23,057 nucleotides of DNA, taken from Cubamyces lactineus. Lineage: Eukaryota; Basidiomycota; Agaricomycetes; Polyporales; Polyporaceae. Under the pieces are notes generated by a model, which was given only the letters and a program-made list of their open reading frames with translations, was not told where the DNA came from and ran no database searches. This document shows, piece after piece, positions 1 through 22,180 of the stretch (position 1 is its first letter; each line of letters begins with the position of its first letter). The stretch covers positions 1 through 23,057 of the forward strand of contig JACDTU010000041.1 in assembly GCA_022376465.1 (NCBI GenBank), read 5' to 3'. The position numbers and the translations under genes were made by a program.

Positions 1-320
1 TTCTACCAATTTTGCATGGTTCCTCCTGCAAAAATATGCGTTAAAAAGCCCTTTCAAGCACCTCTCCAATGATATATTACTCACAGAAATTGGACCAGAG
101 GAAGCCAGGCCAGCCACCCTGCAGTGGTCCCCTCCTGGTGGCCCTTGGCCTAGGGTCGCATTTTTTGGTTATTTTCCCTGCACTATTGCATCACTATGCA
201 CACAGAGATGTACTATGGCATATACATACATGCTATGTATACTTTTGGCCCAACAGGGTGCCCTAATAGGGCCCCAGAAGAGGAGGGCAGGAAGGTGTTG
301 AATATGCCTGCCCTATTTGG

Positions 321-476
321 ACGCAAAAAAGCGCCCAAAAAGCGCCCAAATAGGAACCCAAAAAGCGCCCAGATAACAGCCAAAAAAGCGCCCAGATAAC
401 AGCCAAAAAAGCGCCCAAAAGCGTTGAAGAAGCGCCCAAATAGGAGCCCAAAAAGCGCTAGAAAGTGCCCAGATAG
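321..476 (+). repeat. GCGCCCA-rich short repeat array in fold-back arm
   Basis: About ten degenerate repeats built on AAAAAGCGCCCA, interspersed with AATAGGA and GATAACAGCC linkers. The same block recurs at about 18766-18921 (inverted) and 20899-21054 (direct). It sits inward of the ACGTGG array in each arm. No coding sense is apparent; its reverse complement gives a hydrophobic-looking frame that I consider spurious. Confidence 0.8.
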
Positions 477-499
477 TAGTTGTAATACAAAAGTGGCAT

Positions 500-1475
500 C
501 TACAAAGTGGCCATGTCCATATACAATCCAGCTAAATGTGGGCAGATTGTATATCAGAGGCATGTACAAAACTGCCACGTTCATATACAATTCAGCTATT
601 GTAGATCAGACGTGGGCTGATTGTATATCAGAGGCATGTACAAAACTGCCACGTCCATATACAATCAAGTTAAATGTGGGCAGATTGTATATCAGAGGCA
701 TATACAATACTGCCACGTTCATATACAAAACTGCCACGTTCATATACAATCCAGCTATTGTATATCAGACGTGGGCTGATTGTATATCAGACGTGGGCTG
801 ATTGTATATCAGACGTGGGCTGATTGTATATCAGAGGCATTTACAAAACTGCCACGTCCATCTACAATCAAGCTATTGACATCTACAAACTGCCCACGTC
901 CATCTACAATCCAGCTTTTGTACATCAGACGTGGGCAGATTGTATATCAGAGGCATCTACAAATCACCCACGTCCATCTACAATCCAGCTATTGACATCT
1001 ACAAACTGCCCACGTCCATCTACAATCCAGCTTTTGTACATCAGACGTGGGCAGATTGTATATCAGAGGCATCTACAAATCACCCACGTCCATCTACAAT
1101 TCAGCTATTGTACATTGGACGTGGGTGGATTGTGTATCACAGGGATATACAAACCGCCCACGTCCATGTACGATCCAGCTATTGTACATCAGACGTGGGC
1201 AGATTGTATATCAGAGGCATGTACAAAGCACCCACGTCCATCTACAATCCAGCTATTGACATCTACAAACTGCCCACGTCCATCTACAATCCAGCTTTTG
1301 TACATCAGACGTGGGCAGATTGTATATCAGAGGCATCTACAAATCACCCACGTCCATCTACAATTCAGCTATTATACATTGGACGTGGGTGGATTGTGTA
1401 TTGCAGGGATATGCAAACCACCCACGTCCATGTACGATCCAGCTATTGTGTATCATACGTGGGGGCATTATTCAT
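500..1475 (+). repeat. Array of ACGTGG/CCACGT modules in both orientations
   Basis: About two dozen copies of an ACGTGG or CCACGT core occur here, usually 20-45 bp apart. Each sits in a module resembling TTGTATATCAGACGTGGGC or its reverse complement. Forward and inverted modules are mixed, so the arm can fold on itself as well as with the partner arm. Such subterminal motif clusters are known in several DNA transposon families as transposase-binding sites; that role is only an inference here. Confidence 0.8.
757..834 (+). repeat. 22-bp tandem repeat, three units
   Basis: Three perfect 22-bp units at 757-778, 779-800 and 801-822, then a partial fourth. Each begins ATTGTATATCAG and contains ACGTGGGC. 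The left arm of the complete copy has three units and its right arm has four, so unit number is a marker separating the two arm types. Confidence 0.85.
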
Positions 1476-1548
1476 GCATCTCATTTACAAATGTGGCACA
1501 ATTGTTAATACACTACTACAAAAGCCCCACTCCCATTGAAAATCCATA

Positions 1549-3108
1549 GTGTCATTGATTCTCAATGAGGTGGGCCATTTGTATTTGTATATCGAGTTGG
1601 CAGGTCTTCCACGAGAATTTCCCCACCTACGTGGGCAGTTGTTAACAATCCGTGGTGACCACGACTGGTCGATACCGAAAGAATTTGCGGTTGACAAGGA
1701 AGCCAAGCTAGTCTACTACGAAGGGCAACAAGTCTTCTGGAAGAACAAGTCCTGGCACTTCACCGAAGTCCCTCTCACCTGGCGGAACTGCCTTGACATC
1801 GACCCCGACTACCGAAGACGCTACCGCGAAATATCACTTGGAGACGAACTTCCGGAGGAACCAGCGGCCACCCCGGAACCGAGAACAGAACCAGAACAAC
1901 CTTCCCCGGTAGACTTCACTACTCCCAGACCAGCTCAGGCGGAGATACTCGAGGAGAGTGAACCAGAAAGCGAGAACGCTACAAGAACTTCGAACGACGA
2001 CCACGACCCGGAGGGAAGCGAAGCCGCACCAGAACCCGTAGGGAAGACCCCTCAAGAAGAATCGAACCGAACTGCAAACGAACCCGAAGGCCGAACCGAA
2101 GCCACGATGGCTGAAGAAAAGACGAACGAGATCAAGCTCAAGATGCCCCCAGAGTTCTCAGGGAAGCGGGGCGAAGTAGTGGAGTGGTTGCAGAAATGCT
2201 CCCTCTACCTCACGATGAACAAGAAGACCTACGCCACCGACGAAATGAAGATCGTCTTCTGCCTTATGCTGATGAACGGAGGCACTGCCGGGACCTGGGC
2301 CCGCACCTTCATTGAAGACGTAGAACGGCAGGCAGCCGACCAGAACAAGAACCGAAGACCAGGCGAAGAACGTATCGAACCCAACTACGGAACATGGGAC
2401 GACTTCAAGAAGCAACTACTGGAAGCATTCGACAACATCGACCAGAAGGCCAGCGCCCGTGTGCTGCTGCGAAACCTGAAGCAAGGAAGCAAGAAAGTCG
2501 AAGACTACATTGCCGAGTTCAAGTCGATCATCTCGCGATGCGGAATCACAGAGTTCGAAGTCATTGCCGACTTCTTCTATGCTGGACTCAACCGTCCCCT
2601 TCGAGAAAAGATCTTCGGGATGTACCCCCTACCGAAGGATGCCAGCAAACTCTACCTCCGAGCCTCCACCCTCGAACAGCAGTATCACCTGGGAAGAGCA
2701 TACGACGGGAAGACCTCGACCTTCCGACCTACGTACAAGCCGTACAGACCCCGACCGCAAGAACGCGACCCTGACGCCATGGATGTCGACAAGATGACAA
2801 CCGAAGAACGTGAGAAGCACTACCGAGAAGGACGATGCTTCAATTGCCACCAGATAGGGCACCTAGCGCGGCAGTGCCCCAACAGAAGAACCAACGACCG
2901 TAAGAAGACGAAGCCTGCCGCCAAGGCCCGCATCACCGAGGTCGAAGAAGACGAGAGCGACGATGATGAAGACATCAAATCCATCGACGGCCAAGCGGCT
3001 GACAAGAAGCAGCTTATCGCAGCAAGGATCCGTACCGCTCTGAGGGGGCTAGAAGAAGACCAAGACGCGAAGGAAATCCTCGCAAGCTTCTCCAACGAGG
3101 GTTCTTGA
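1549..3108 (+). CDS. gag: Gag polyprotein, 5' end replaced by fold-back element sequence
   Basis: Gag would form the cytoplasmic particle that packages the element RNA. The 519-residue frame starts at a chance ATG inside the fold-back arm; genuine gag begins only after 1667 (about residue 40). An in-frame ATG at 2107 in good context (ccacgATGG) starts the conserved part. Residues 100-190 are Glu/Pro-rich and likely disordered. Residues 195-385 form the helical capsid-like region. The CCHC knuckle is C430-x2-C433-x4-H438-x4-C443, followed by a Lys-rich then acidic tail. The stop (3106-3108) overlaps the pol frame, which lies -1 relative to gag and is open from 3003. I see no canonical slippery heptamer in the 105-nt overlap. 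The true N-terminus is missing from the window. Confidence 0.8.
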   Translation: MSLILNEVGHLYLYIELAGLPREFPHLRGQLLTIRGDHDWSIPKEFAVDKEAKLVYYEGQQVFWKNKSWHFTEVPLTWRNCLDIDPDYRRRYREISLGDELPEEPAATPEPRTEPEQPSPVDFTTPRPAQAEILEESEPESENATRTSNDDHDPEGSEAAPEPVGKTPQEESNRTANEPEGRTEATMAEEKTNEIKLKMPPEFSGKRGEVVEWLQKCSLYLTMNKKTYATDEMKIVFCLMLMNGGTAGTWARTFIEDVERQAADQNKNRRPGEERIEPNYGTWDDFKKQLLEAFDNIDQKASARVLLRNLKQGSKKVEDYIAEFKSIISRCGITEFEVIADFFYAGLNRPLREKIFGMYPLPKDASKLYLRASTLEQQYHLGRAYDGKTSTFRPTYKPYRPRPQERDPDAMDVDKMTTEEREKHYREGRCFNCHQIGHLARQCPNRRTNDRKKTKPAAKARITEVEEDESDDDEDIKSIDGQAADKKQLIAARIRTALRGLEEDQDAKEILASFSNEGS

Positions 3109-4919
3109 AGAACCGGCGTGCCTCGACGTCACGACTGCGTACTAAGGTCCGCCGTGTAATAGTAGCGCAGACTTCTCGACAGTCTATGAGAATTCCGTTA
3201 TCTATCCACGCGGACCTAAGCGTCGAAACGAAAGCCCTCATCGACACGGGAGCGGGAGAAGTATTCATGGACCACAGGTTTGCGAAAGAGCACAACTTCC
3301 CGCTCAAATCGCTGAAAGCCCCGATCCGAGTATACAACGCTGACGGAACCAGGAATGAAGCAGGCGATATCAAGAAATGCGCAGTCCTTGAAATTGAAGC
3401 TGGGCGCCACCGACACATTGTGCGGTTCCTGATTACGTCGCTAGGAAAGGAACCAATCATCCTGGGCCTGCCATGGCTGCAGCGCGTCAATGCCAACATC
3501 GACTTCACGAAAGGGACCCTCGATATCGACCCCGCCCGGGTGAACCGAACAATTGTGGAACATCTGCGTGCAATGTGGTTCCCAGATCAAGACCCCTTCA
3601 CCGGAAGACCCAAGCCAGTGGAAGAAGAACCGAACGAAGAAGCAAATGAAGAAGACGAAGACGCGACCGAGGAAGCATCGACCCAAGAACCAATCTACGA
3701 GAACATCGAACGAGTTACCCTCTCCGACGTGCACCCGGAAGAAGAACCCAACGACCAAGATCTGCTGATAGCTTATCTTCGCGGAGAACACGAAGCCATG
3801 ATAGCATCGCACGCGACAGAACGGCACGGAGATATGCCTCGACCCGGATCCCCCCTCACCACGGAACACGACTACGAACCCACGAAGATTGGACCTGGAC
3901 CCACCATCGGAAGAATCCGACGAGCCCCACAAGGACTTCGATTTGCAATTGCAGCCAACGTCTGGATCCGAGCAAAGGTCAACCCCGCAATGGCACTCGC
4001 ACAACAGCACCAAGCACAGGAAGAGAAGAAGACTTTCGAAGAGATGCTCCCCGAACCGTACCGAGGATATGCCGCCATCTTTGAAAAGAAGGCGTCCGAA
4101 CGATTCCCACCATCACGACCCTGGGACCTGGCCATTGAACTCAAGGAAGGCTTTACCCCGAAGGACTTCAAGCGATATCAACTCACGCCCAAGGAACTCG
4201 AAGCCGAGGAAGAATTCATCCGGGAGAACCTACGAAAAGGCTACATCCGACCCTCGAACTCGCCGATGGCATCCCCATTCTTCTTCGTCGGCAAGAAGGA
4301 CGGAACACTACGACCCTGCCAAGATTATCGATACCTCAACGAAGGAACCGTCCCCAACAAGTACCCACTACCGCTCATATCAGAATTGGTCGACAAGCTG
4401 CGCGGAGCGAAGGTTTTCTCCAAACTGGACCTCCGATCGGGATACAACAACGTCCGTATCAAGGACGGTGATCAATGGAAGGCCGCCTTCCGAACCAGCA
4501 AAGGGCTATACGAACCAATGGTCATGTTCTTTGGACTGCGGAACTCCCCCTCGGCTTTTCAAGCTATGATGAACGCAATCTTCGCAGACATGATCGACGA
4601 AGGATGGGTAGTGATTTACATGGACGACATACTGATCTTTTCCGCAGACCTGGACGAACACCGAAGAAGGACCTTACGTGTCCTGGAACGACTCAAAGAA
4701 CACGACCTCTGCCTCAAGCTAGAGAAGTGCATATTCGATGCACCAGAAGTGGAGTATCTTGGAATGATCATCAGCGAGAACCGGATCTCCATGGACCCTA
4801 TCAAGATAAAGGGAATACTCGACTGGCCAGAACCGACAACCGTCAAGGACGTTCGATCATTCCTTGGATTCGGCAACTTTTACCGACGATTCATCGACCA
4901 CTTCTCGGAGATCGCGTGA
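3105..4919 (+). CDS. pol: Pol, N-terminal part: aspartic protease and reverse transcriptase (ends at an in-frame TGA)
   Basis: This 604-residue frame carries a retropepsin active site DTG at residues 47-49 with a GLPWL partner motif at 121-125, an acidic linker (about 170-225), then RT from about residue 340. RT landmarks are KLDL with catalytic D442, the FGLRNSP block at 476-482 and YMDD at 505-508 (4617-4628). The ATG-less start at 3105 is TTG; the first ATG in frame is at 3186, just before the protease, so expression could be by -1 frameshift from gag or by reinitiation. The frame stops at TGA 4917-4919, exactly where the family normally has Arg in the I-A-R-P-L motif, and the same frame then stays open to 6953. 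This is best read as a CGA-to-TGA nonsense change inside pol. Confidence 0.88.
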   Translation: MKNRRASTSRLRTKVRRVIVAQTSRQSMRIPLSIHADLSVETKALIDTGAGEVFMDHRFAKEHNFPLKSLKAPIRVYNADGTRNEAGDIKKCAVLEIEAGRHRHIVRFLITSLGKEPIILGLPWLQRVNANIDFTKGTLDIDPARVNRTIVEHLRAMWFPDQDPFTGRPKPVEEEPNEEANEEDEDATEEASTQEPIYENIERVTLSDVHPEEEPNDQDLLIAYLRGEHEAMIASHATERHGDMPRPGSPLTTEHDYEPTKIGPGPTIGRIRRAPQGLRFAIAANVWIRAKVNPAMALAQQHQAQEEKKTFEEMLPEPYRGYAAIFEKKASERFPPSRPWDLAIELKEGFTPKDFKRYQLTPKELEAEEEFIRENLRKGYIRPSNSPMASPFFFVGKKDGTLRPCQDYRYLNEGTVPNKYPLPLISELVDKLRGAKVFSKLDLRSGYNNVRIKDGDQWKAAFRTSKGLYEPMVMFFGLRNSPSAFQAMMNAIFADMIDEGWVVIYMDDILIFSADLDEHRRRTLRVLERLKEHDLCLKLEKCIFDAPEVEYLGMIISENRISMDPIKIKGILDWPEPTTVKDVRSFLGFGNFYRRFIDHFSEIA

Positions 4920-6953
4920 CCACTCAACGCGCTCACCAAGAAAGACACCAAATGGGAATGGACAACGGAATGCCAGAAGGCCTTCGACATGCTGAAGCAA
5001 CGATTCGCGACGGCCCCCGTGCTGCAAATGCCCGACATTAGCAAACCCTTTGTCGTCGAATCCGACGCCTCGCAATGGGCCACAGGGGCAGTACTCCGAC
5101 AACGAGACGCCAACGGCGACCTGCACCCGTGCGCGTATCTATCCGAAGGATTCACCGAAGCGGAACGGAACTACGAAATCTATGACCGAGAACTACTTGG
5201 CATCATTCGAGCCCTGAAGGCCTGGCGACACTACCTCGAAGGATCAGGGCACCCGGTTACGATCCTATCCGACCACAAGAACCTCACCTACTGGCGCAAC
5301 CCGCAACAACTGAACAGACGACAAGCACGATGGGCCCTCTTTCTCTCCCAGTTCGACATCCAACTCGTACATACCCCCGGCACGGCAATGGTACAATCGG
5401 ATGCGCTATCCCGAAGACCCGATCACCGACAAGGATCAGAAGACGACAATACTGAACGAACCATGCTACCTGACAACCTCTTCGTACGACTAGTGGACAC
5501 CCGACTGGCACCGAGGTTCCGACACTTGGCCACGCAAGACAGACTCTTTTGCGACGCACTTGCTGCCATCCAACACGACGGACCACCCCCGATCAGAAGT
5601 GCACTCACCGATTGGCAAGAACGAGATGGCTTAATCTTCTACAAGAACCGATGCTACGTACCGGCCGACGAAGCCCTGCGACGAGACCTGATCAGTCAAC
5701 ACCACGACTCCCCGGCAGCCGGACACCCTGGGAAATTCAAGACTCTAGAACTGATACGGCGGTCATACTGGTGGCCCGGCATGTATGCCATGGTATCCCG
5801 ATACGTCGAAGGCTGTGCCACATGCCAGCAGAACAAGCCAAACACACACCCGACCACCCCGCCCCCACAACCAATCCCCGCTGACGATGTTACTCGGCCA
5901 TTCCAGAACGTCGCGATGGATCTCATCACCGATCTCCCCGAATCCCACGGCTACGATAGTATTCTGGTCGTGGTCGACCATGGCCTTACGAAGGGGGTGA
6001 TTTTCGCACCATGCAAGAAGACGATCGACGCAATCGGCACAGCGGCGCTTTACCACCGGCATGTCTACCGACGCTTTGGACTACCCAGCAAGATCATATC
6101 CGACCGAGGGCCACAATTCGTATCCAACGTCACTCGCGAACTAGGAAGACTCTTAGGCATCACCCTTTCCCCGTCTACCGCGTATCACCCGCAGACCGAC
6201 GGACAAACGGAACGAGTGAATCAAGAACTGGAAGTCTACCTCAGGATATTCTGCGAAGGCCGACCAGACGAATGGGCGGAACACCTTGTCGACGCAGAAG
6301 TCGCACACAATCAACGGACCCACTCAGCACGGAACGCATCACCATTCTACCTCATGATGGGGTACGAACCGACACTGATTCCTATCGCATACCCCAAGAC
6401 CAACACCCCGACAGTACAAGAACGGCTAGTGAACCTCCAGAAGGCCCGAGACGAAGCCCTAGCAGCCCACGAGCTAGCTCGACACGTCATACGCGACAGG
6501 TTCAAGGGAAAGTTCGTCCAATTCAAGAAAGGACAGAAGGTCTGGCTTGAAGGGAAGAACCTCAAGCTCGCTTACGCATCCCGGAAACTCGCACCCAAAC
6601 GGGAAGGCCCCTTTGTCATCACCGAAGTACTTGGACCCGTAACCTATCGGCTGGAGCTGCCGAAACACTGGAAGGTACACCCCGTGTTCCACGCATGCTT
6701 CCTCACCCCATACAAGGAAAACGACACCCACGGACCGAACTACACGAGGCCACCACCTGACCTTATCGACGGAGAAGAAGAATATGAGGTCGAAGCGATC
6801 GTCGGACACAAGGCCACACGAGGCGGAATCCGCTACCAAATCAAGTGGAAAGGCTACTCCAGCGCCGAGAACACATGGGAACCCGAGTCCGCTCTAATTC
6901 CGAACGCCAAAGAAATCCTCCAACGGTATAAAAGGGCGAAGAAGCTGCTGTAA
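4920..6953 (+). CDS. pol: Pol, C-terminal part: RNase H, integrase, chromodomain
   Basis: In frame with the preceding pol segment. The first internal ATG is 4989, and numbering here is from it (654 residues). RNase H acidic residues appear as D26, E68, D95 and D138. Integrase has a zinc-binding H239/H246/C276/C279 set and a D311-D372-E408 core with exactly 35 residues between the last two, the D,D35E pattern. A GPF module lies near 540-542. The C-terminal chromodomain (about 597-650) keeps the cage aromatics Y599, W620 and Y623, so it could bind methylated histone H3 and steer integration to heterochromatin, as known for chromoviruses. No damage is visible in this half. It would be translated only if the upstream TGA is bypassed or from an internal start, so this copy is probably defective without help. 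Confidence 0.88.
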
Positions 6954-9370: not shown

Positions 9371-10164
9371 AACAGGTTCGATTAAGCCTTACCGTCGCTC
9401 GGTAGGACTTCGTGCGTCGTAAGCCACTGCAGGTTGGACCTTAGCGGCAGAGTCCGGGGTTTAGCAGCCTGAGTGCAGACATTGTTGAAGGATAGGATTG
9501 GGATAGGGATAAAGGAGAACAGGATAGGAAGGTTCTCAGGTCGTTTGACCATCGGACAGGACGTGCAGCCGAGCGGGTTAGCTAGGGGAAACTCTGCCAG
9601 CTCTATCGGTGCGTTCTAGGGTAGGTAGAGGAAGCTTCTGGGACTTGCCGGAAGATTTTCTCAAGGAGGATTCTGAGATCTACAGGGCCTAGGGAGAAGA
9701 GGTCAGATCTCGCAAAGGTACAGTAGACTTTGTGTGTTTCGTGTTCCGTAGGTTCGTTTGCGTATCACCGCCAAGTAAGGGCAGACCCCGAACTCGGCAG
9801 AGCCACTGTCTGGAAAGGAGGAAAACCGACAAGCTTTGCGGCAACGTGAGGTGTATTGGTTTGAGTTCTTTGAAAGACGCGTGACTAAGAGACGTATTTC
9901 TGAGTGCTCCTCATTTTCATTCACCTTCGTCGTAGGATCGTTGGCATTACCGCTTTCGGTCGAAGATTTTGATTGTTCTTGAGTAGGTAGTTTCTCACAC
10001 AACCCTCTTTCACCCCCTTTTTACTTTCTCACCACACAACCACCACCCCAACCTCACTCGCGACATCTGGAGCCCACCGCGAGGGGTACAAAGATTTGTG
10101 TCTCGATCTAGATACGCAATTGGATCAGGAGCCAAGCACAGAGTTTATTGTTCCAGCGCTTAGA
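9371..10164 (+). other. Long leader without recognisable gene
   Basis: About 800 bp between the putative intron and the polyprotein ATG. It holds a purine-rich segment with GGATAGG/GGGATAGGG repeats at about 9487-9530 and a C/A-rich stretch just before 10090. Multiple stops occur in all frames. I found no convincing primer-binding site or LTR end. Confidence 0.5.
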
Positions 10165-13100
10165 ATGTCGATGTCGTCTACGATAGATGCACGCAGCAGT
10201 AGGGCACACAGCCCGTCCTTTGGAAGTGATCTTTCTTCCATTCCGTCGTCACGTTCAGTCATGGACATGCCGGTGGAGGGGACAAAGCTGGCCCCAAAGA
10301 CATTCCGAGGGGACCCAGCTGAGGTGGAGCAGTTCTTGCGTAGGTTTGAGAGGCTAGCCATGTTACACAACCTCTCAGCCCGTGAGAAATGCGAGACCAT
10401 AGTGGACTATTGCAGCAAAGTCGTTCGTGAGACGATTCAGGGATTCTCGGCGTACCGGTTGCATAACTGGGAGGAGCTCAAGCAGAATGTTCGCATTTTC
10501 TGGAATGCTGATCTCGAGGATAAGCGTTTCAGGATTCGTGATCTTCAGGCGTTTGTAGCTCATTCTAGGAAGCAGCCTATCCAGGAGTTGAAGGATTGGC
10601 GCAAGTATCTACGTAAGTTTATCCGTATTGCTGGTTGGCTACAGGGTCAAGGCAAGCTCAAGGCCGACGACTACGCCTACTACATGTGGACAGGCTTATA
10701 TGGGCCATTCCGGAAACGACTGGAGGCTAGGATTCTTTTGAAGGACCCGAGTCACGACATGGCTGAACCGTTTGAACCAGAAGCTATCAGGAAAGCCGCT
10801 GAGGCAATCTTGGGAGTTGACCGGTTTGACACGGAGAGGCTTAGATCTGATGACTTGTACGAGGAAGATTCTGATGAAGACCAGTCAGATGATCTACGGG
10901 AACTCGAAAGGCCTAGCACCAAACGGACGAAGAAGACATTGGCGAGGAGTAGGAAGACTCATTTAGGATGGAAGGATGACGAAGATGACTCGGACGATGA
11001 AGATTTCGACAGGGCGCTGCCGCGAGAAATGCCGCGAGCCGTGGAGAAGGAAAACAAGGTAAGTAAGGAGAAGGTAGAAGAGAAGGAGTTTGAGGATTTG
11101 GTGGAGAAGATGAAGAAGTTGTCGGTAAATGATCCTCAGTATGGATTGTTGTTTCTGAAGGCATGTACCATGAAGCCCATTGCGGCCGAGTGTTTACCAC
11201 GTCCACAGGTGAACCAGGCTGCACCCGACCGTTTCGATGGAAGGAGGATGATGCCGCCACACATGCCTCGCCCAGACCCTAACAGATTCTTGTCGTATAG
11301 GCAACCACCGCTGAACACTGGAAACTGTTTTGGTTGTGGAGAGGCAGGGCACATCATGGGTGAGTGTCCCCAGATCCAGAAGTATCTGAAGGATGGTCTA
11401 CTCTTGAAGGACTTCAGGGGAAGGTTAACGTTGCCGGATGGTTCTATCCTAAGACGTAACCAAGGGGAGACGTGGGTACAGGCTGTCAAGCGGATATTTC
11501 CAGAAGTACACTTTGTGACGTATGGAGATCGGCTTGAAAGAAGCAATGATGAGGATGGTGAGGAGAGTGCGGACGTATTGGTATATCCAGTGGAGCGTGT
11601 CCAGCGTGAGACTAGATCATACCGGAAGCAGGCGTTTGACAAAGGGGGAAGCTCGTCCTCACAGGATAAGGGGAAGCAGAAGGAGCCGACTCCAAGCCAG
11701 AAGCAGCCTACGCCAATGGCTCGGTTTCCAATGCAACGCCTTACGCCAGTGGAGACACAGTCCCAGAGCTTCAACCCAGACAAAGATATAGAGATGATTG
11801 AAGATCGTGCTCTGAATCAGCGTCAGAAGAAGTCGAACGTGCCTGTTAGCGACCGCACTCGAGTACCTGCCAGGACCTCGCAGATCAGTAAGAATGTTGA
11901 TCCAACTGCCGTTTTGGACAAGATCCTCGATGCGCCAGTCACCTTATCGGTACGGGACGTCGTGGGTGTTTCCAAGGATGTGGCTAATTGCCTGCAGGAG
12001 GTGCTGAAGGTCAAGAAGGCTGATGTGGTACCTGCTCCCGCTTCGCACTTAGTGACATCCAAGGCAGGTTCTCTGATCCGCTTGGAAATGGAATGCAATC
12101 AGAAGCCTGTATCGTTTATCGTGGACACAGGTTCACAGTTGAACATCATCAGTGAATCAGTGTGCAAGAACGTAGTTCGCAGACCCATCAACACCGGAGA
12201 AGCGATCTCGATAAATGATGCAAATGGAGGATCTGGTAGATTGCTCGGATTGGTTGAAGACATCCCTCTCAAGATTGGGCATGTAAAGACACCGATCAGT
12301 GCATATGTAGCAGAGAATCCACCATTTGATGGACTTCTAGGCAGACCATGGCAGCGTGCGCACAAGATTGGCATTGAAGAACGGGATGATGGAACCTATC
12401 TCACATTCCCAAACGAGAAAGGTTACGCCAAGTCAGAGCTATTGGTCACTACGTCGCTCGCAAGCAGAGGAGCACCTGGTGTCTTCTCAGCGATTGTGAA
12501 GGAGTGGGACCAAGACGATCCTAAGTGTGCAGTCATAGATCACGAAGGTTCAGGCTCAGATGACTCGGACGCAATGTCAATCGCCTCAGCCGACGAACTT
12601 GGAAGTGACTCAGTGGAAGGACCAGCTTCAGACAAGGTAAGTACGGACTCAGAAGACAAGGACCACTCCGATTCGGAATCAGAGGGTAAGGCTGATTCTG
12701 TCCGAGACTCAGATGACGATGACAAAGACGAGGACAGGTTGGATCATGTGCTTGGGCCATTGTCGTCGAAGGAGAATTCAGTCGATGACGAGGATGAATG
12801 GGAGAGAGATATGTACCGGAAGGTGTGGCGTTTTCTAGAAGTACGGAATCCTGGAAGTACATTAACTAGGGCTGGACCATGCACAATCATGACAGACACA
12901 TCACTGGAATTACAGAACCCGGACCCGGGGGTAATCAGCCGAACGTTTCTCCTCAGGGACGCGAAGCTATTCAACCGAGCCGGAGGCTGTCAAGGACACG
13001 TGATTGTCAAGGTGGTGCCATACAGTGCTAGTAACTGCATGCGGTTCGAGCAGCTAGAAGATGATACTTTGCGGGAGGTGTCTGTGAACTCTGTTCAGGT

Positions 13101-14340
13101 GGAGGAGACTAGTCCTGCATTGGACAAGTCAAATCACCAGGTGACAGCTCCGCAGCGTCCACAGTCTACACTTCTGACCATGCATGGCTGGCTTCAAGGG
13201 TATACGTTTCCATTCTTGATCGACACTGGCTCCCAGATTGACTGCATTCACGCTAATGTCTGGCGAACCATAGGATGGGCGCACCCGCTGACACGCAAGG
13301 CAGAAAGGCTGTTGAACGTTACGGGCTCTCGTCTCAGATGCCTGGGAGTGTGGAAGACGTTTGTTACCATTGGAACCATTACGTCTATGGTAGACTTGCA
13401 TGTCGTTGAAGGCCTAACGGAGGCAGGGATACTTGGAAGACCATGGCAGGAACTTAACCGGATGTCGTTGAATGACACAGATGAAGGTGTGTACCTGAGC
13501 ATTAGGTCAAGTGATGGTTTCCATACCTATGGGGTATTGGTAACTTCGCCGGAAGCACAACGAGCGGTGCGACGACGGACTAGAGAGATTTGTGCAGCAG
13601 TGACCAGGCCATCCACGCCTGAGATGTCTTTTGACGAGAGTCACCAGTTGCAGAAGTTATTTGGTCCCGAGGAGCAGTTGGAGCACGAGGCATTTGTGGA
13701 GTCAGCATATGAGGACACAGGGGCCTTCGTGGACCTGCCGCTTGAACCCAGCCCAGAATACGATCCGTGGGATTTGAAAGTAGATGATGACACGGGAGAG
13801 TTGGAACCAGAACAGGAAATCAGTGAGGCTAATCTGGAGAATCAGATGTACACCAAGCTTCTATGGAAGTACTGTACTGAGTATCGACTCCCGCGAGCAG
13901 TGTCTCAGCCTACGATCGAGTCCATTGAGGTATACGAGTCAGACAAGTTGGAACTTAGGGACGATTGGCTGATTGATATCTCAAAGAAGGAACAGTTGTT
14001 CATTCTGCGGAACGTATTGGTACGCATTGATGGCAAGTATCGGGAAGGACACGGTGTGCTACACATGGTGTATTTCCCACATGAGTCGGAGCGTGCACGG
14101 ATAGCGAATGCAGCACTGAAAGGTAACGGCGATACGGAACGGAACAGTACGGATGAAGAGTTGGAGGAAGAACAGCGAAGTCGAAGACTCTTTGGACAGC
14201 GAATGTGGCCCAGGTTCACGCAGGAAGATCTGTACCAGTCAATGAAGGAAGTGTCATTTGAGACCGGAACCGTAAGTCAGTTGGTGTCGGAACAGAAGAG
14301 ATGGAGCCAGGCGAGATCTCAGACGTTGCGAGGCCAATAG
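10165..14340 (+). CDS. Gag-like polyprotein with zinc knuckle and two tandem retropepsin domains
   Basis: The first ATG in a long frame (open from 10096) is at 10165, giving 1391 residues. Residues 45-220 form a helical Gag/capsid-like region (FRGDPAEVEQFLRRFER onward). Acidic and basic linkers follow, then a CCHC knuckle C388-x2-C391-x4-H396-x4-C401. A block near 580-620 (VLDKILDAPVTLSVRDVVGV) resembles a domain I recall from basidiomycete retroelement proteins (DUF4100-like; from memory). Protease 1 has DTGSQ at 654 and LLGRPWQ at 724-730. Protease 2 has DTGSQ at 1020 and ILGRPWQ at 1089-1095, with nearly the same spacing and matching DxGxYL and LVT motifs. An Asp/Ser-rich linker separates them. 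No RT, RNase H or integrase follows. It is either a non-autonomous LTR element protein or a domesticated one; the length without a stop argues for recent constraint or recent insertion. Confidence 0.78.
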   Translation: MSMSSTIDARSSRAHSPSFGSDLSSIPSSRSVMDMPVEGTKLAPKTFRGDPAEVEQFLRRFERLAMLHNLSAREKCETIVDYCSKVVRETIQGFSAYRLHNWEELKQNVRIFWNADLEDKRFRIRDLQAFVAHSRKQPIQELKDWRKYLRKFIRIAGWLQGQGKLKADDYAYYMWTGLYGPFRKRLEARILLKDPSHDMAEPFEPEAIRKAAEAILGVDRFDTERLRSDDLYEEDSDEDQSDDLRELERPSTKRTKKTLARSRKTHLGWKDDEDDSDDEDFDRALPREMPRAVEKENKVSKEKVEEKEFEDLVEKMKKLSVNDPQYGLLFLKACTMKPIAAECLPRPQVNQAAPDRFDGRRMMPPHMPRPDPNRFLSYRQPPLNTGNCFGCGEAGHIMGECPQIQKYLKDGLLLKDFRGRLTLPDGSILRRNQGETWVQAVKRIFPEVHFVTYGDRLERSNDEDGEESADVLVYPVERVQRETRSYRKQAFDKGGSSSSQDKGKQKEPTPSQKQPTPMARFPMQRLTPVETQSQSFNPDKDIEMIEDRALNQRQKKSNVPVSDRTRVPARTSQISKNVDPTAVLDKILDAPVTLSVRDVVGVSKDVANCLQEVLKVKKADVVPAPASHLVTSKAGSLIRLEMECNQKPVSFIVDTGSQLNIISESVCKNVVRRPINTGEAISINDANGGSGRLLGLVEDIPLKIGHVKTPISAYVAENPPFDGLLGRPWQRAHKIGIEERDDGTYLTFPNEKGYAKSELLVTTSLASRGAPGVFSAIVKEWDQDDPKCAVIDHEGSGSDDSDAMSIASADELGSDSVEGPASDKVSTDSEDKDHSDSESEGKADSVRDSDDDDKDEDRLDHVLGPLSSKENSVDDEDEWERDMYRKVWRFLEVRNPGSTLTRAGPCTIMTDTSLELQNPDPGVISRTFLLRDAKLFNRAGGCQGHVIVKVVPYSASNCMRFEQLEDDTLREVSVNSVQVEETSPALDKSNHQVTAPQRPQSTLLTMHGWLQGYTFPFLIDTGSQIDCIHANVWRTIGWAHPLTRKAERLLNVTGSRLRCLGVWKTFVTIGTITSMVDLHVVEGLTEAGILGRPWQELNRMSLNDTDEGVYLSIRSSDGFHTYGVLVTSPEAQRAVRRRTREICAAVTRPSTPEMSFDESHQLQKLFGPEEQLEHEAFVESAYEDTGAFVDLPLEPSPEYDPWDLKVDDDTGELEPEQEISEANLENQMYTKLLWKYCTEYRLPRAVSQPTIESIEVYESDKLELRDDWLIDISKKEQLFILRNVLVRIDGKYREGHGVLHMVYFPHESERARIANAALKGNGDTERNSTDEELEEEQRSRRLFGQRMWPRFTQEDLYQSMKEVSFETGTVSQLVSEQKRWSQARSQTLRGQ

Positions 14341-17567: not shown

Positions 17568-17574
17568 GGTACAG
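17568..17574 (+). repeat. Target-site duplication GGTACAG (left copy)
   Basis: GGTACAG directly abuts the left terminus CAGTCGTGG of the fold-back element. The identical 7-mer directly abuts the right terminus at 22174-22180. The next base outward differs (C versus G), so the duplication is 7 bp as seen. Confidence 0.75.
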
Positions 17575-19836
17575 CAGTCGTGGTCACCACGGATTGTTAA
17601 CAACTGCCCACGTAGGTGGGGAAATTCTCGTGGAAGACCTGCCAACTCGATATACAAATACAAATGGCCCACCTCATTGAGAATCAATGACACTATGGAT
17701 TTTCAATGGGAGTGGGGCTTTTGTAGTAGTGTATTAACAATTGTGCCACATTTGTAAATGAGATGCATGAATAATGCCCCCACGTATGATACACAATAGC
17801 TGGATCGTACATGGACGTGGGTGGTTTGCATATCCCTGCAATACACAATCCACCCACGTCCAATGTATAATAGCTGAATTGTAGATGGACGTGGGTGATT
17901 TGTAGATGCCTCTGATATACAATCTGCCCACGTCTGATGTACAAAAGCTGGATTGTAGATGGACGTGGGCAGTTTGTAGATGTCAATAGCTGGATTGTAG
18001 ATGGACGTGGGTGCTTTGTACATGCCTCTGATATACAATCTGCCCACGTCTGATGTACAATAGCTGGATCGTACATGGACGTGGGCGGTTTGTATATCCC
18101 TGTGATACACAATCCACCCACGTCCAATGTACAATAGCTGAATTGTAGATGGACGTGGGTGATTTGTAGATGCCTCTGATATACAATCTGCCCACGTCTG
18201 ATGTACAAAAGCTGGATTGTAGATGGACGTGGGCAGTTTGTAGATGTCAATAGCTGGATTGTAGATGGACGTGGGTGATTTGTAGATGCCTCTGATATAC
18301 AATCTGCCCACGTCTGATGTACAAAAGCTGGATTGTAGATGGACGTGGGCAGTTTGTAGATGTCAATAGCTTGATTGTAGATGGACGTGGCAGTTTTGTA
18401 AATGCCTCTGATATACAATCAGCCCACGTCTGATATACAATCAGCCCACGTCTGATATACAATCAGCCCACGTCTGATATACAATAGCTGGATTGTATAT
18501 GAACGTGGCAGTTTTGTATATGAACGTGGCAGTATTGTATATGCCTCTGATATACAATCTGCCCACATTTAACTTGATTGTATATGGACGTGGCAGTTTT
18601 GTACATGCCTCTGATATACAATCAGCCCACGTCTGATCTACAATAGCTGAATTGTATATGAACGTGGCAGTTTTGTACATGCCTCTGATATACAATCTGC
18701 CCACATTTAGCTGGATTGTATATGGACATGGCCACTTTGTAGATGCCACTTTTGTATTACAACTACTATCTGGGCACTTTCTAGCGCTTTTTGGGCTCCT
18801 ATTTGGGCGCTTCTTCAACGCTTTTGGGCGCTTTTTTGGCTGTTATCTGGGCGCTTTTTTGGCTGTTATCTGGGCGCTTTTTGGGTTCCTATTTGGGCGC
18901 TTTTTGGGCGCTTTTTTGCGTCCAAATAGGGCAGGCATATTCAACACCTTCCTGCCCTCCTCTTCTGGGGCCCTATTAGGGCACCCTGTTGGGCCAAAAA
19001 TATACATAGCATGTATGTATATGCCATAGTACATCTCTGTGTGCATAGTGATGCAATAGTGCAGGGAAAATAACCAAAAAATGCGACCCTAGGCCAAGGG
19101 CCACCAGGAGGGGACCACTGCAGGGTGGCTGGCCTGGCTTCCTCTGGTCCAATTTCTGTGAGTAATATATCATTGGAGAGGTGCTTGAAAGGGCTTTTTA
19201 ACGCATATTTTTGCAGGAGGAACCATGCAAAATTGGTAGAAATATGGATCATCGCATTTTCGCCAAAAATGGCCATTTTGTTTCCTTGATTGCTCAGCAC
19301 ACAGGTGTCCCCTCATGTTTTCCTTGGTACCGTTCAATTCGCGTTTTCAAGGGCTTTCTAACAGTAGTACATACATGGCATTCTGACCACATGCATTGAC
19401 ATCCTTCTCCTGCCCCTCCCTCACTTTACCACCTCATAGCTCCTGCAGTTCTTTGTCTTTCTCTGTGAAGTCTTTTGATATCTGTAGTATACATACAGAA
19501 CTATGTATTTATTGCTTTTTACGCCCTAATATGGCCTATCCCCAATGGAATCCATCTAGGTGCATTTTCGCACTTTTCAGATTCTCCCCTCCATATCTCT
19601 GCACCCAGAGCAGCTATTGCCTTTGTTCTTTTCGCATTTTGTGCCTGGACATTGCTACTACATGTCTGTAGAAGCTCATTTTTATCGAATGCAGCGATCA
19701 GAATTGAGCTCCTTATCAGCTGTGGCAGGCAGATCCTGTTTTGGCTTACATTCAGGGCATTATTTTCTGATCAGATAGCACATTCATATTCTACTCGTCT
19801 ATAGCTACCTGTAACAACAAGAATCATGGGATTTGG
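17575..19836 (-). repeat. Fold-back element, left arm (type A)
   Basis: Reverse complement of the same unit as 1-1667, extended inward to 19836. It has three 22-bp units in the ACGTGG array, and its outer array is 72 bp longer overall than that of the right arm. It is indel-free against copy 1 over 1667 bp. Confidence 0.85.
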
Positions 19837-19983
19837 AGGAGTGGTTGCAGAGATATGGCCCAGAGGCACCAAATGCTGCCTGTTCAGCAATGCACTGCAT
19901 GCATTTCCGGAGCAGTGCAACTGCACACACTGCAACTTTGGGTGTCCAGGAGGTCCATTCACTGTAGCTCACTCAATTCTTCA
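19837..19983. other. Fold-back element central loop (147 bp)
   Basis: The only single-copy part of the element, lying between ...CATGGGATTTGG and CCAAATCCCATG.... It contains small self-complementary words around TGCACTGCATGCA and GCAGTGCAACTGCAC but no ORF of note. Confidence 0.8.
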
Positions 19984-22173
19984 CCAAATCCCATGATTCT
20001 TGTTGTTACAGGTAGCTATAGACGAGTAGAATATGAATGTGCTATCTGATCAGAAAATAATGCCCTGAATGTAAGCCAAAACAGGATCTGCCTGCCACAG
20101 CTGATAAGGAGCTCAATTCTGATCGCTGCATTCGATAAAAATGAGCTTCTACAGACATGTAGTAGCAATGTCCAGGCACAAAATGCGAAAAGAACAAAGG
20201 CAATAGCTGCTCTGGGTGCAGAGATATGGAGGGGAGAATCTGAAAAGTGCGAAAATGCACCTAGATGGATTCCATTGGGGATAGGCCATATTAGGGCGTA
20301 AAAAGCAATAAATACATAGTTCTGTATGTATACTACAGATATCAAAAGACTTCACAGAGAAAGACAAAGAACTGCAGGAGCTATGAGGTGGTAAAGTGAG
20401 GGAGGGGCAGGAGAAGGATGTCAATGCATGTGGTCAGAATGCCATGTATGTACTACTGTTAGAAAGCCCTTGAAAACGCGAATTGAACGGTACCAAGGAA
20501 AACATGAGGGGACACCTGTGTGCTGAGCAATCAAGGAAACAAAATGGCCATTTTTGGCGAAAATGCGATGATCCATATTTCTACCAATTTTGCATGGTTC
20601 CTCCTGCAAAAATATGCGTTAAAAAGCCCTTTCAAGCACCTCTCCAATGATATATTACTCACAGAAATTGGACCAGAGGAAGCCAGGCCAGCCACCCTGC
20701 AGTGGTCCCCTCCTGGTGGCCCTTGGCCTAGGGTCGCATTTTTTGGTTATTTTCCCTGCACTATTGCATCACTATGCACACAGAGATGTACTATGGCATA
20801 TACATACATGCTATGTATATTTTTGGCCCAACAGGGTGCCCTAATAGGGCCCCAGAAGAGGAGGGCAGGAAGGTGTTGAATATGCCTGCCCTATTTGGAC
20901 GCAAAAAAGCGCCCAAAAAGCGCCCAAATAGGAACCCAAAAAGCGCCCAGATAACAGCCAAAAAAGCGCCCAGATAACAGCCAAAAAAGCGCCCAAAAGC
21001 GTTGAAGAAGCGCCCAAATAGGAGCCCAAAAAGCGCTAGAAAGTGCCCAGATAGTAGTTGTAATACAAAAGTGGCATCTACAAAGTGGCCATGTCCATAT
21101 ACAATCCAGCTAAATGTGGGCAGATTGTATATCAGAGGCATGTACAAAACTGCCACGTTCATATACAATTCAGCTATTGTAGATCAGACGTGGGCTGATT
21201 GTATATCAGAGGCATGTACAAAACTGCCACGTCCATATACAATCAAGTTAAATGTGGGCAGATTGTATATCAGAGGCATATACAATACTGCCACGTTCAT
21301 ATACAAAACTGCCACGTTCATATACAATCCAGCTATTGTATATCAGACGTGGGCTGATTGTATATCAGACGTGGGCTGATTGTATATCAGACGTGGGCTG
21401 ATTGTATATCAGACGTGGGCTGATTGTATATCAGAGGCATTTACAAAACTGCCACGTCCATCTACAATCAAGCTAAACGTGGGCAGATTGTATATCAGAG
21501 GCATGTACAAATCACCCACGTTCATCTACAATCCAGCCACGTTCATATACAAAACTGCCACGTTCATATACAATACTGCCACGTTCATATACAATACTGC
21601 CACGTTCATATACAATCCAGCTATTGTATATCAGACGTGGGCTGATTGTATATCAGAGGCATGTACAAAACTGCCACGTCCATCTACAATCAAGCTAAAC
21701 GTGGGCAGATTGTATATCAGAGGCATGTACAAATCACCCACGTCCATCTACAATCCAGCCATTGACATCCACAAACCGCCCACGTCCATCTACAATCCAG
21801 CTTTTGTACATCAGACGTGGGCAGATTGTATATCAGAGGCATCTACAAATCACCCACGTCCATCTACAATTCAGCTATTATACATTGGACGTGGGTGGAT
21901 TGTGTATTGCAGGGATATACAAACCACCCACGTCCATGTACGATCCAGCTATTGTGTATCATACGTGGGGGCATTATTCATGCATCTCATTTACAAATGT
22001 GGCACAATTGTTAATACACTACTACAAAAGCCCCACTCCCATTGAAAATCCATAGTGTCATTGATTCTCAATGAGGTGGGCCATTTGTATTTGTATATCG
22101 AGTTGGCAGGTCTTCCACGAGAATTTCCCCACCTACGTGGGCAGTTGTTAACAATCCGTGGTGACCACTAGTG
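19984..22173 (+). repeat. Fold-back element, right arm (type B)
   Basis: Direct-orientation arm, colinear with copy 1 at offset 20578 up to about 21379. After that the array differs: four rather than three 22-bp units, then a run at about 21541-21620 of a roughly 21-bp unit (CTGCCACGTTCATATACAAT) that is nearly the inverse of the 22-bp unit. Colinearity resumes near the terminus. Confidence 0.85.
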
Positions 22174-22180
22174 GGTACAG
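22174..22180 (+). repeat. Target-site duplication GGTACAG (right copy)
   Basis: Identical to 17568-17574 and directly adjacent to the right terminus of the fold-back element. Confidence 0.75.

Follow-up and report, generated by a model that had tools for sequence, protein, structure and literature searches.

The long-armed foldback anatomy of the elements reported here is shared, as far as they are described, by Drosophila FB and Mutator-like foldbacks (Tm1 and others). The duplications of these elements are longer, about 9 bp, and FB has a Mutator-type transposase. In mushrooms, Abr1 of Agaricus bisporus is a short element (~300 bp) in which subterminal repeats accompany a 7-bp duplication; unlike our elements it is not known to have a long palindrome. 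Another structural counterpart is Galileo, of the P superfamily, for which long inverted repeats, internal tandem repeats in some subfamilies, 7-bp duplications, unequal numbers of repeats in the two arms, chimeras without matching 7-bp flanks and recombination between copies are described (PMC3573991), as for the present family. In contrast with Galileo, the long relative found here encloses matches to KDZ transposases, the arms make up nearly the whole element and the host is a fungus.

Kyakuja, the KDZ lineage of mushrooms, is described as having 7-bp duplications and 5'-CA..TG-3' termini, and two Laccaria bicolor Kyakuja families are reported without inverted terminal repeats (Kojima 2025, PMC12730594). 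Cryptococcus KDZ1-3 are given as ~9.2-11 kb long, with inverted repeats of 139-241 bp and duplications of 4-8 bp (PMC12810828). Our elements resemble the Kyakuja/KDZ transposons, as presented in these two sources, in their 7-bp duplications, their 5'-CA..TG-3' ends (Kyakuja) and the KDZ matches of the long relative, called type D. The latter is also similar to Cryptococcus KDZ1-3, as described, in its size class (~9-12 kb) and in having inverted repeats >130 bp (PMC12810828). In contrast, the elements that we called type A are palindromes of 3.7-5.7 kb without a recognised transposase and carry tandem repeats in their arms.

Anatomy of the palindromic element

The window, i.e. the whole 23,057-nt stretch of Cubamyces lactineus DNA analysed, contains one complete type-A copy and part of a second one. 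Their features are as follows.

1..1667, minus strand: incomplete second type-A copy, running off the contig start, with a CAGTC-type end at 1667, adjoining Gypsy gag sequence
1740..2332, plus strand: empty paralogue of the insertion site of copy L015 (contig C19), within the window's own Gypsy element (593 nt, 98%, gap-free)
17568..17574, plus strand: target-site duplication GGTACAG, left copy
17575..17641, plus strand: left terminus of the CAGTC type (CAGTCGTGGTCACCACGGATTGTTAACAACTGCCCACG...); its homologue in type D, the KDZ-enclosing element, is the left end (82% over 67 nt)
17650..18760, plus strand: left subterminal tandem-repeat zone, with spacings mostly of 42, 74 and 116
18784..18920, plus strand: GCGCTTTTTGGG-rich repeat zone of the left arm, matched by 162 nt of a type-C end at 81%
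18980..19841, plus strand: palindromic core, left half, common to other subfamilies (~85-92%)
19842..19978, plus strand: loop, 137 nt, whose orientation relative to the ends varies among copies
19979..20840, minus strand: palindromic core, right half, inverted
21050..22106, minus strand: right subterminal tandem-repeat zone, inverted, with a repeat number unlike that of the left arm
22107..22173, minus strand: right terminus, CACTA-type end
22174..22180, plus strand: target-site duplication GGTACAG, right copy

The first-pass annotation of this DNA had described a palindromic, foldback-type mobile element at 17575-22173, and this was borne out: the near-palindrome is 4,599 bp long, GGTACAG abuts it on either side, and long, internally repetitive inverted arms form nearly all of it. 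The arms, estimated at about 2.2 kb, measure 2,267 and 2,195 nt, and the loop is 137 nt rather than the 147 bp first given. The termini had been called matched; they do match from position 6 inward, but the outermost 5-mers differ (CAGTC versus CACTA). Aligned over their full length, the arms have 2,124 identities, 48 mismatches and 118 gap positions, with 39 of the mismatches and all the gaps concentrated in 18050-18407, within the tandem-repeat zone. The innermost arms (18407-19841 and 19979-21413, 1,435 nt each) pair with 2 mismatches.

The left subterminal zone is rich in CCACGT/ACGTGG, with 25 motifs in the 1,111 nt of 17650..18760, compared with a mean of 0.37 and a maximum of 5 in shuffled sequences. 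In agreement with the first-pass annotation, which saw no transposase, the element has no recognisable coding capacity: no Pfam match passed the cut-off for three of its reading frames, the longest of 241 residues. An Rfam search of the window at gathering scores returned no match either.

Copies, duplications and empty sites

At least 18 complete type-A copies are present in the 36.3-Mb genome, including that of the window, and all of them lie inside contigs. The same boundaries recur from copy to copy, and the genome holds dozens of related elements; the copy numbers are lower bounds, as the best 40 of 56, 46, 43 or 55 candidates were scored in the DNA searches. Perfect 7-bp duplications flank 22 of the 24 complete type-A or type-B copies that have one CAGTC and one CACTA end, namely 16 of 18 for type A (the remaining two having one of 8 bp and none, respectively) and 6 of 6 for type B. 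The initial expectation of 7-bp duplications at other insertions thus holds for most copies, with a minority of exceptions: neither of the two type-B copies with like ends has a perfect duplication, nor does the single A/E chimera have one of 7 bp, and among the five type-E copies two have an exact duplication and one a duplication with one mismatch. In all 22 copies with perfect duplications, CA and TG directly abut the 7-bp repeats. An inversion between L014 and L015 was considered for the missing duplication of L014 and rejected, L015 having retained both its perfect duplication and an empty site.

Gap-free empty sites were identified for three of the 17 copies tested (L011, 593 nt, 99%; L015, 593 nt, 98%; L021, 590 nt, 96%). 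For 12 of the 17, including the window copy, none was found within the loci examined. The duplications and empty sites are the marks of real, precise transposition events. An assembly artefact, a caveat raised at the outset, or a random inverted duplication might seem to be favoured by the five contigs that begin or stop inside a copy (C6, C22, C23, C26 and C36) and by two C26 flanks that duplicate the C23 site with 100% identity. For the family, however, this explanation is already refuted and its probability practically nil, given that the complete type-A copies lie within contigs and differ in their flanks, that 16 of 18 have a 7-bp duplication of their own, and that gap-free empty sites exist.

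Arm similarity and loop orientation

Relative to the ends, the loop lies one way in 10 of the 18 complete type-A copies and the other way in eight. The arms are identical within 11 of these copies, compared with 4.0 expected, a number reached in none of 20,000 shuffles; the summed differences amount to 26, as against 70 (p about 0.0006). The similarity of arms within copies thus exceeds chance and the centre occurs in either orientation, which points to arm-to-arm recombination. Part of the homogenisation may nevertheless be due not to conversion but to the shared ancestry of subfamilies.

Terminal types and subterminal motifs

A CAGTC end is present in 25 of the 26 complete type-A or type-B copies (24 with dissimilar ends and one with two CAGTC ends), whereas all five type-E copies have CACTA at both termini. 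An assignment to CACTA/EnSpm, in which both ends are CACTA and the duplication is of 2-3 bp, was rejected in view of the 7-bp duplication and of these CAGTC ends. Across subfamilies the core is conserved at ~85-92% identity, while the subterminal arms go down to ~65%. CCACGT/ACGTGG motifs occur at 22.5, 9.8, 5.2 and 16.6 per kb in the subterminal zones of types A, B, C and D, respectively, compared with 0 per kb in the type-A and type-B cores and 0.4 in the non-element DNA of the window. The end sequences consist of the outer CAGTC/CACTA pair, GTGGT and CCCAC separated by 22 nt, and CCACGT-rich subterminal repeats.

A longer relative encloses KDZ matches

The first-pass annotation had given no source for the transposase and had proposed looking for a longer relative with the same termini. 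Such a relative appears to exist, and the former statement does not stand as worded. The type-D element extends from C20:58693 to about 75929 and carries a nested type-A copy, net of which it is 12,029 bp long. Its ends, C20:58693(+) and C20:75763-75923(-), are inverted repeats 100% identical over 161 nt; the last 6 bases of the right end have no match to the left end. Immediately to the left of C20:58693 stand the 7 bases AATCTCG. They are 79-82% identical over 67-84 nt to the CAGTC ends of types A and B. Two matches to the KDZ transposase domain PF18758 lie between them, C20:72507-72881 (98 bits) and 72305-72475 (36.4 bits), together with a third block, C20:72091-72264, which at 25.1 bits is under the curated cut-off. 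The three blocks jointly span profile positions 1-217, with stops in two of them that may represent introns or decay.

We found 61 KDZ matches in the genome, only three of which lie between matched ends of the palindrome family. Together with chromodomain Gypsy elements, the KDZ matches give the genome a fungal appearance. The association between type D and KDZ is a single case, since only one KDZ-enclosing type-D element was found among the matches listed (best 40 of 55). The link that it provides between the palindromes and a KDZ transposase, as judged from sequence, appears strong but not closed. The 7-bp duplication alone decides nothing, because Cryptococcus KDZ elements give 4-8 bp and hAT7 elements also give 7 bp. 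The KDZ domain of the long relative (one case), the 7-bp duplication and the 5'-CA..TG-3' termini are features of KDZ elements, but the inverted repeats of type D span at least 161 nt, in contrast with the Laccaria bicolor Kyakuja families. The assignment is thus one of membership at the KDZ level and of mere likeness at the Kyakuja level, because type D has inverted terminal repeats as Cryptococcus KDZ1-3 do.

One might argue that an unrelated KDZ transposon landed in the type-D element, and that another enzyme is responsible for moving both type D and the palindromes. KDZ matches are indeed common in this genome, and so are nested insertions, as illustrated by the type-A copy inside type D and by type-E copies on C22 and C41 whose distances to KDZ matches are 147 and 344 bp. 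However, the net 12.0 kb of type D is a normal length for a KDZ element and leaves little room for a second one, and the 7-bp duplication and CA..TG ends agree with Kyakuja. We therefore consider this explanation unlikely.

A hAT transposase generating 7-bp duplications (hAT7-like), with its autonomous copy diverged, lost or unassembled, could also move the foldbacks. The termini of the palindromes begin with CA, which counts in favour of hAT, but the hAT terminal consensus is YARNG, which CAGTC and CACTA do not seem to fit. The genome has ten matches to the hAT-dimerisation domain (PF05699), but none lies between facing ends of the palindrome family, and the sole long relative found holds KDZ rather than hAT matches. 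Although 7-bp duplications are described for hAT7 families of rust fungi (PMC12730594), we find this explanation quite improbable. An origin in another class with 7-8-bp duplications, such as the P superfamily, is suggested by the strikingly similar anatomy of Galileo, with its long inverted repeats, tandem repeats in some subfamilies, 7-bp duplications and chimeras as described in PMC3573991. It seems very improbable given the KDZ matches inside the only long relative found, the profiles searched being KDZ, hAT and MULE. MULE as a source of transposase was rejected, none of the five PF10551 matches lying between facing ends.

Two other candidate autonomous elements were discarded. At C18:6181, a type-C end is followed by different sequence, and a solo end is likelier; Tc1/mariner-like fragments there (HTH_Tnp_Tc3_2, E 1.7e-6; DDE_3, E 0.00026) are below curated cut-offs, and a 141-residue frame has no Pfam match. 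The other, C7:653609-671294, is a type-B copy that has CAGTC at both ends, lacks a duplication and is broken up by gag sequence of the copia type and by a chromodomain Gypsy element.

Separately, facing CAGTTGTGGTCACC motifs at C11:52367(+) and C11:68577(-) flank the KDZ matches C11:57349-58126. Among the matches listed for a loose pattern, three (C11:52367, C35:29388 and C35:5381) are each separated from the edge of a KDZ domain by exactly 4,982 bp; the pattern totals 113 real matches versus 51 in controls (28 forward, 23 reverse).

Proposed explanation and significance

On the basis of their ends and of the type-D element, the palindromes are probably non-autonomous foldback derivatives of a KDZ (Kyakuja-like) DNA transposon, whose transposase would carry out their cut-and-paste movement in trans. 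That enzyme would bind the shared terminal block (GTGGTCACCA...GCCCAC), possibly assisted by the many CCACGT motifs of the subterminal repeats, and would move the palindromes in the same way as its own element. Each palindrome probably formed as an inverted copy of one arm took the place of a longer element's interior. Later recombination between arms and between copies would keep the arms alike, flip the centre and form chimeras.

A more tentative idea, which we regard as rather doubtful, is that a KDZ lineage spun off a family of palindromes of many lineages moved in trans, whose central cassette, spread by recombination across terminal types, is a module of its own. The flips and the identity of the core relative to that of the arms would fit this idea, and the cassette might be kept because a double-stranded transcript or hairpin affects silencing.

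In the open-licence PMC literature, our searches turned up no published KDZ element of the foldback type. According to PMC12730594, the KDZ group has three lineages, and just one of them is described there as a well-characterised DNA transposon. If confirmed, the explanation that we favour, mobilisation in trans by a KDZ transposase, would add the foldback architecture to this group, and the dozens of natural substrates would reveal the end sequences on which the enzyme can act. The palindromes are also a record of arm-to-arm recombination, and with their flipping centres and homogenised arms, it may become possible to measure palindrome maintenance directly, from long reads or in pedigrees.

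Type-A copies in the window and across the genome

The assembly searched comprises 36.3 Mb in 43 contigs, one of which, C36, is taken up in full by the window (bases 1-23057 of 23057). The boundaries proposed for its palindromic element by the first-pass annotation, 17575-22173, were borne out: the element spans 4,599 bp, and both borders touch GGTACAG. Its innermost arms (1,435 nt each) are paired with two mismatches around a loop of 137 nt, and the arms differ chiefly in their subterminal tandem repeats. As also proposed, no transposase is recognised in the element, none of three of its frames (longest 241 residues) matching Pfam above the cut-off. The window also contains:

1-1667, second type-A copy, truncated
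1549-6953, Ty3/Gypsy element (gag, protease, RT, RNase H, integrase and chromodomain across three listed frames)
10096-14340, open frame of 1,414 residues (DUF4100 match and two aspartyl-protease-like stretches)

The gag frame of the Gypsy element adjoins the truncated type-A copy. The 1,414-residue frame, within which no reverse transcriptase match was found, looks like the gag-protease of another retroelement.

The termini of the element recur genome-wide. Counting complete copies and leaving out partial copies and solo ends, here and for types B and E, we found 18 type-A copies of 3,699-5,737 bp (a set of 17 plus C12:335947-340175). All were oriented with the CAGTC end at left, and all 18 carry CACTA at the other end, though the search pattern permitted four combinations. 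The predicted 7-bp duplication is perfect in 16 of the 18; L022 has an 8-bp duplication, AGTTCGGA, and L014 has none.

For 17 copies, the flanks were joined, one 7-mer was removed and the result was compared with all fetched sequence. Three have gap-free unoccupied paralogues:

L011, 593 nt, 99% identity
L015, 593 nt, 98% identity, within the Gypsy element of the window itself
L021, 590 nt, 96% identity

L018 and L022 gave matches with gaps, and the search of fetched sequence returned no empty site for the other 12, window copy included.

Contig C26 has two partial copies (L026, C26:2074-2700; L020, C26:19715-20314) whose flanks are 100% identical, over 595 and 600 nt, to both flanks of L021 on C23; their order points either to a duplication, tandem or segmental, or to a haplotype left uncollapsed. 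The type-A copy L044 (C16:275183 onward) borders open frames that may resemble a stretch of a Plavaka-type transposase gene of fungi; two of these frames had no match in a Pfam search. At L068/L070 (C18:6150-10990), a probable solo type-C end is followed by Tc1/mariner-like fragments (Pfam matches under cut-off), and a 141-residue frame there has no Pfam match.

Arms and core

Over an 841-nt core, 11 of the 18 copies have two identical arms, against 4.0 expected under random arm pairing, and as many as 11 occurred in 0 of 20,000 shuffles; the summed arm differences are 26 versus a shuffle mean of 70 (p ~0.0006). Among 17 copies, L013 and L024 carry their own unique variants on both arms. The loop lies one way in 10 of 18 copies and the other way in 8, and the pairs L010/L011 and L014/L015 have the same two arm haplotypes with sides swapped and the loop turned to match. 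Together, these observations indicate recombination between arms. Part of the arm homogeneity could reflect shared descent of subfamilies.

A search with 681 nt of core yielded at least 78 matches (best 40 of 46 candidates scored), mostly adjacent inverted pairs, with identities of 98-100% for type-A copies, 96% for one match and 86-92% for the remainder. Types A and B are ~85% identical over 898 nt of core, versus ~64-67% in the subterminal zones and 74% over the terminal 98 nt. The type-B copy L065 retains one half of the core, with the loop unmatched, and core copies at C40, C12:194 kb, C7:192 kb, C41:434 kb and C41:1,614 kb have no assigned ends.

Like and unlike ends

Type B (GTGGTCACCACTCATTG...) has eight complete copies. 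The duplication is perfect in all six with unlike ends, and is missing from the two like-ended ones, C5:190367-192715 (CACTA/CACTA) and C7:653609-671294 (CAGTC/CAGTC). In types A and B, unlike ends thus accompany transposition, and like-ended copies look like recombination products. Two unlike ends may be required, but they are no rule for the whole group: all five complete copies of type E (CACTAGTGGTTTCCATTTTTATAA) carry CACTA on both sides, with exact duplications in two, a duplication with one mismatch in another and none in two. KDZ matches sit 147 and 344 bp away from these last two copies, C22:17398-21285 and C41:275678-279538. A chimera at C26:20315-24049 (in L020), with a left A end and a right E end, lacks a duplication.

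A candidate source of transposase

None of the 10 hAT and 5 MULE matches in the genome lies between facing ends of the palindrome family. The KDZ profile has 61 matches in the genome and none in 14 control genomes. Taken with the Gypsy content, this abundance of KDZ suggests that the host is a basidiomycete, probably related to mushrooms. A longer relative of the kind that the first-pass annotation proposed to look for appears to exist: type-D ends enclose KDZ matches and are 82% (A) and 79% (B) identical to the CAGTC ends among the best 40 of 55 candidates scored. The end at C20:58693 has an inverted partner at C20:75763-75923 (100% over 161 nt); we infer the outer right border, 75929, because the partner's six outermost bases are unmatched. 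Between these ends lie three KDZ blocks, jointly spanning profile positions 1-217:

C20:72091-72264, 25.1 bits, under cut-off, with stops
C20:72305-72475, 36.4 bits, with stops
C20:72507-72881, 98 bits

Based on these profile blocks, the KDZ gene is a candidate for D's own transposase. D measures 17,237 bp with a nested type-A copy (C20:62275-67475) and 12,029 bp without it; the D sequences on the two sides of that copy join into an open frame of 147 residues that runs through the empty site. Three pieces of D reading frames stayed below the Pfam cut-off (best E, 0.017). The type-D end has CCACGT-rich tandem repeats, as do the palindromes. Types A-E share GTGGT, then 22 nt, then CCCAC (spacing counted on the end alignment), and CA.T.GTGGT..CCA is common to eight aligned end examples.

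Elsewhere, loose-end-pattern matches occur exactly 4,982 bp from a KDZ domain edge at three places (C11:52367-68577, C35:5381 and C35:29388) and may be the terminus of a second type of KDZ element.

Mobilization of the palindromes

The palindromes are quite probably passengers that a KDZ enzyme would move in trans by cut-and-paste. We consider this the best reading, and published KDZ relatives fit: Kyakuja elements have 7-bp duplications and 5'-CA..TG-3' termini (PMC12730594), and Cryptococcus KDZ1-3 are ~9-11 kb long with inverted repeats of 139-241 bp and duplications of 4-8 bp (PMC12810828). However, hAT7 likewise gives 7-bp duplications, and inverted repeats are reported absent from Laccaria bicolor Kyakuja families (both PMC12730594); a single KDZ-enclosing copy with family ends, among 40 of 55 candidates scored, also counts against a KDZ enzyme. 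Each palindrome probably arose when an inverted copy of one arm took the place of a longer element's interior, and the palindromes may possibly have a role at the RNA level.
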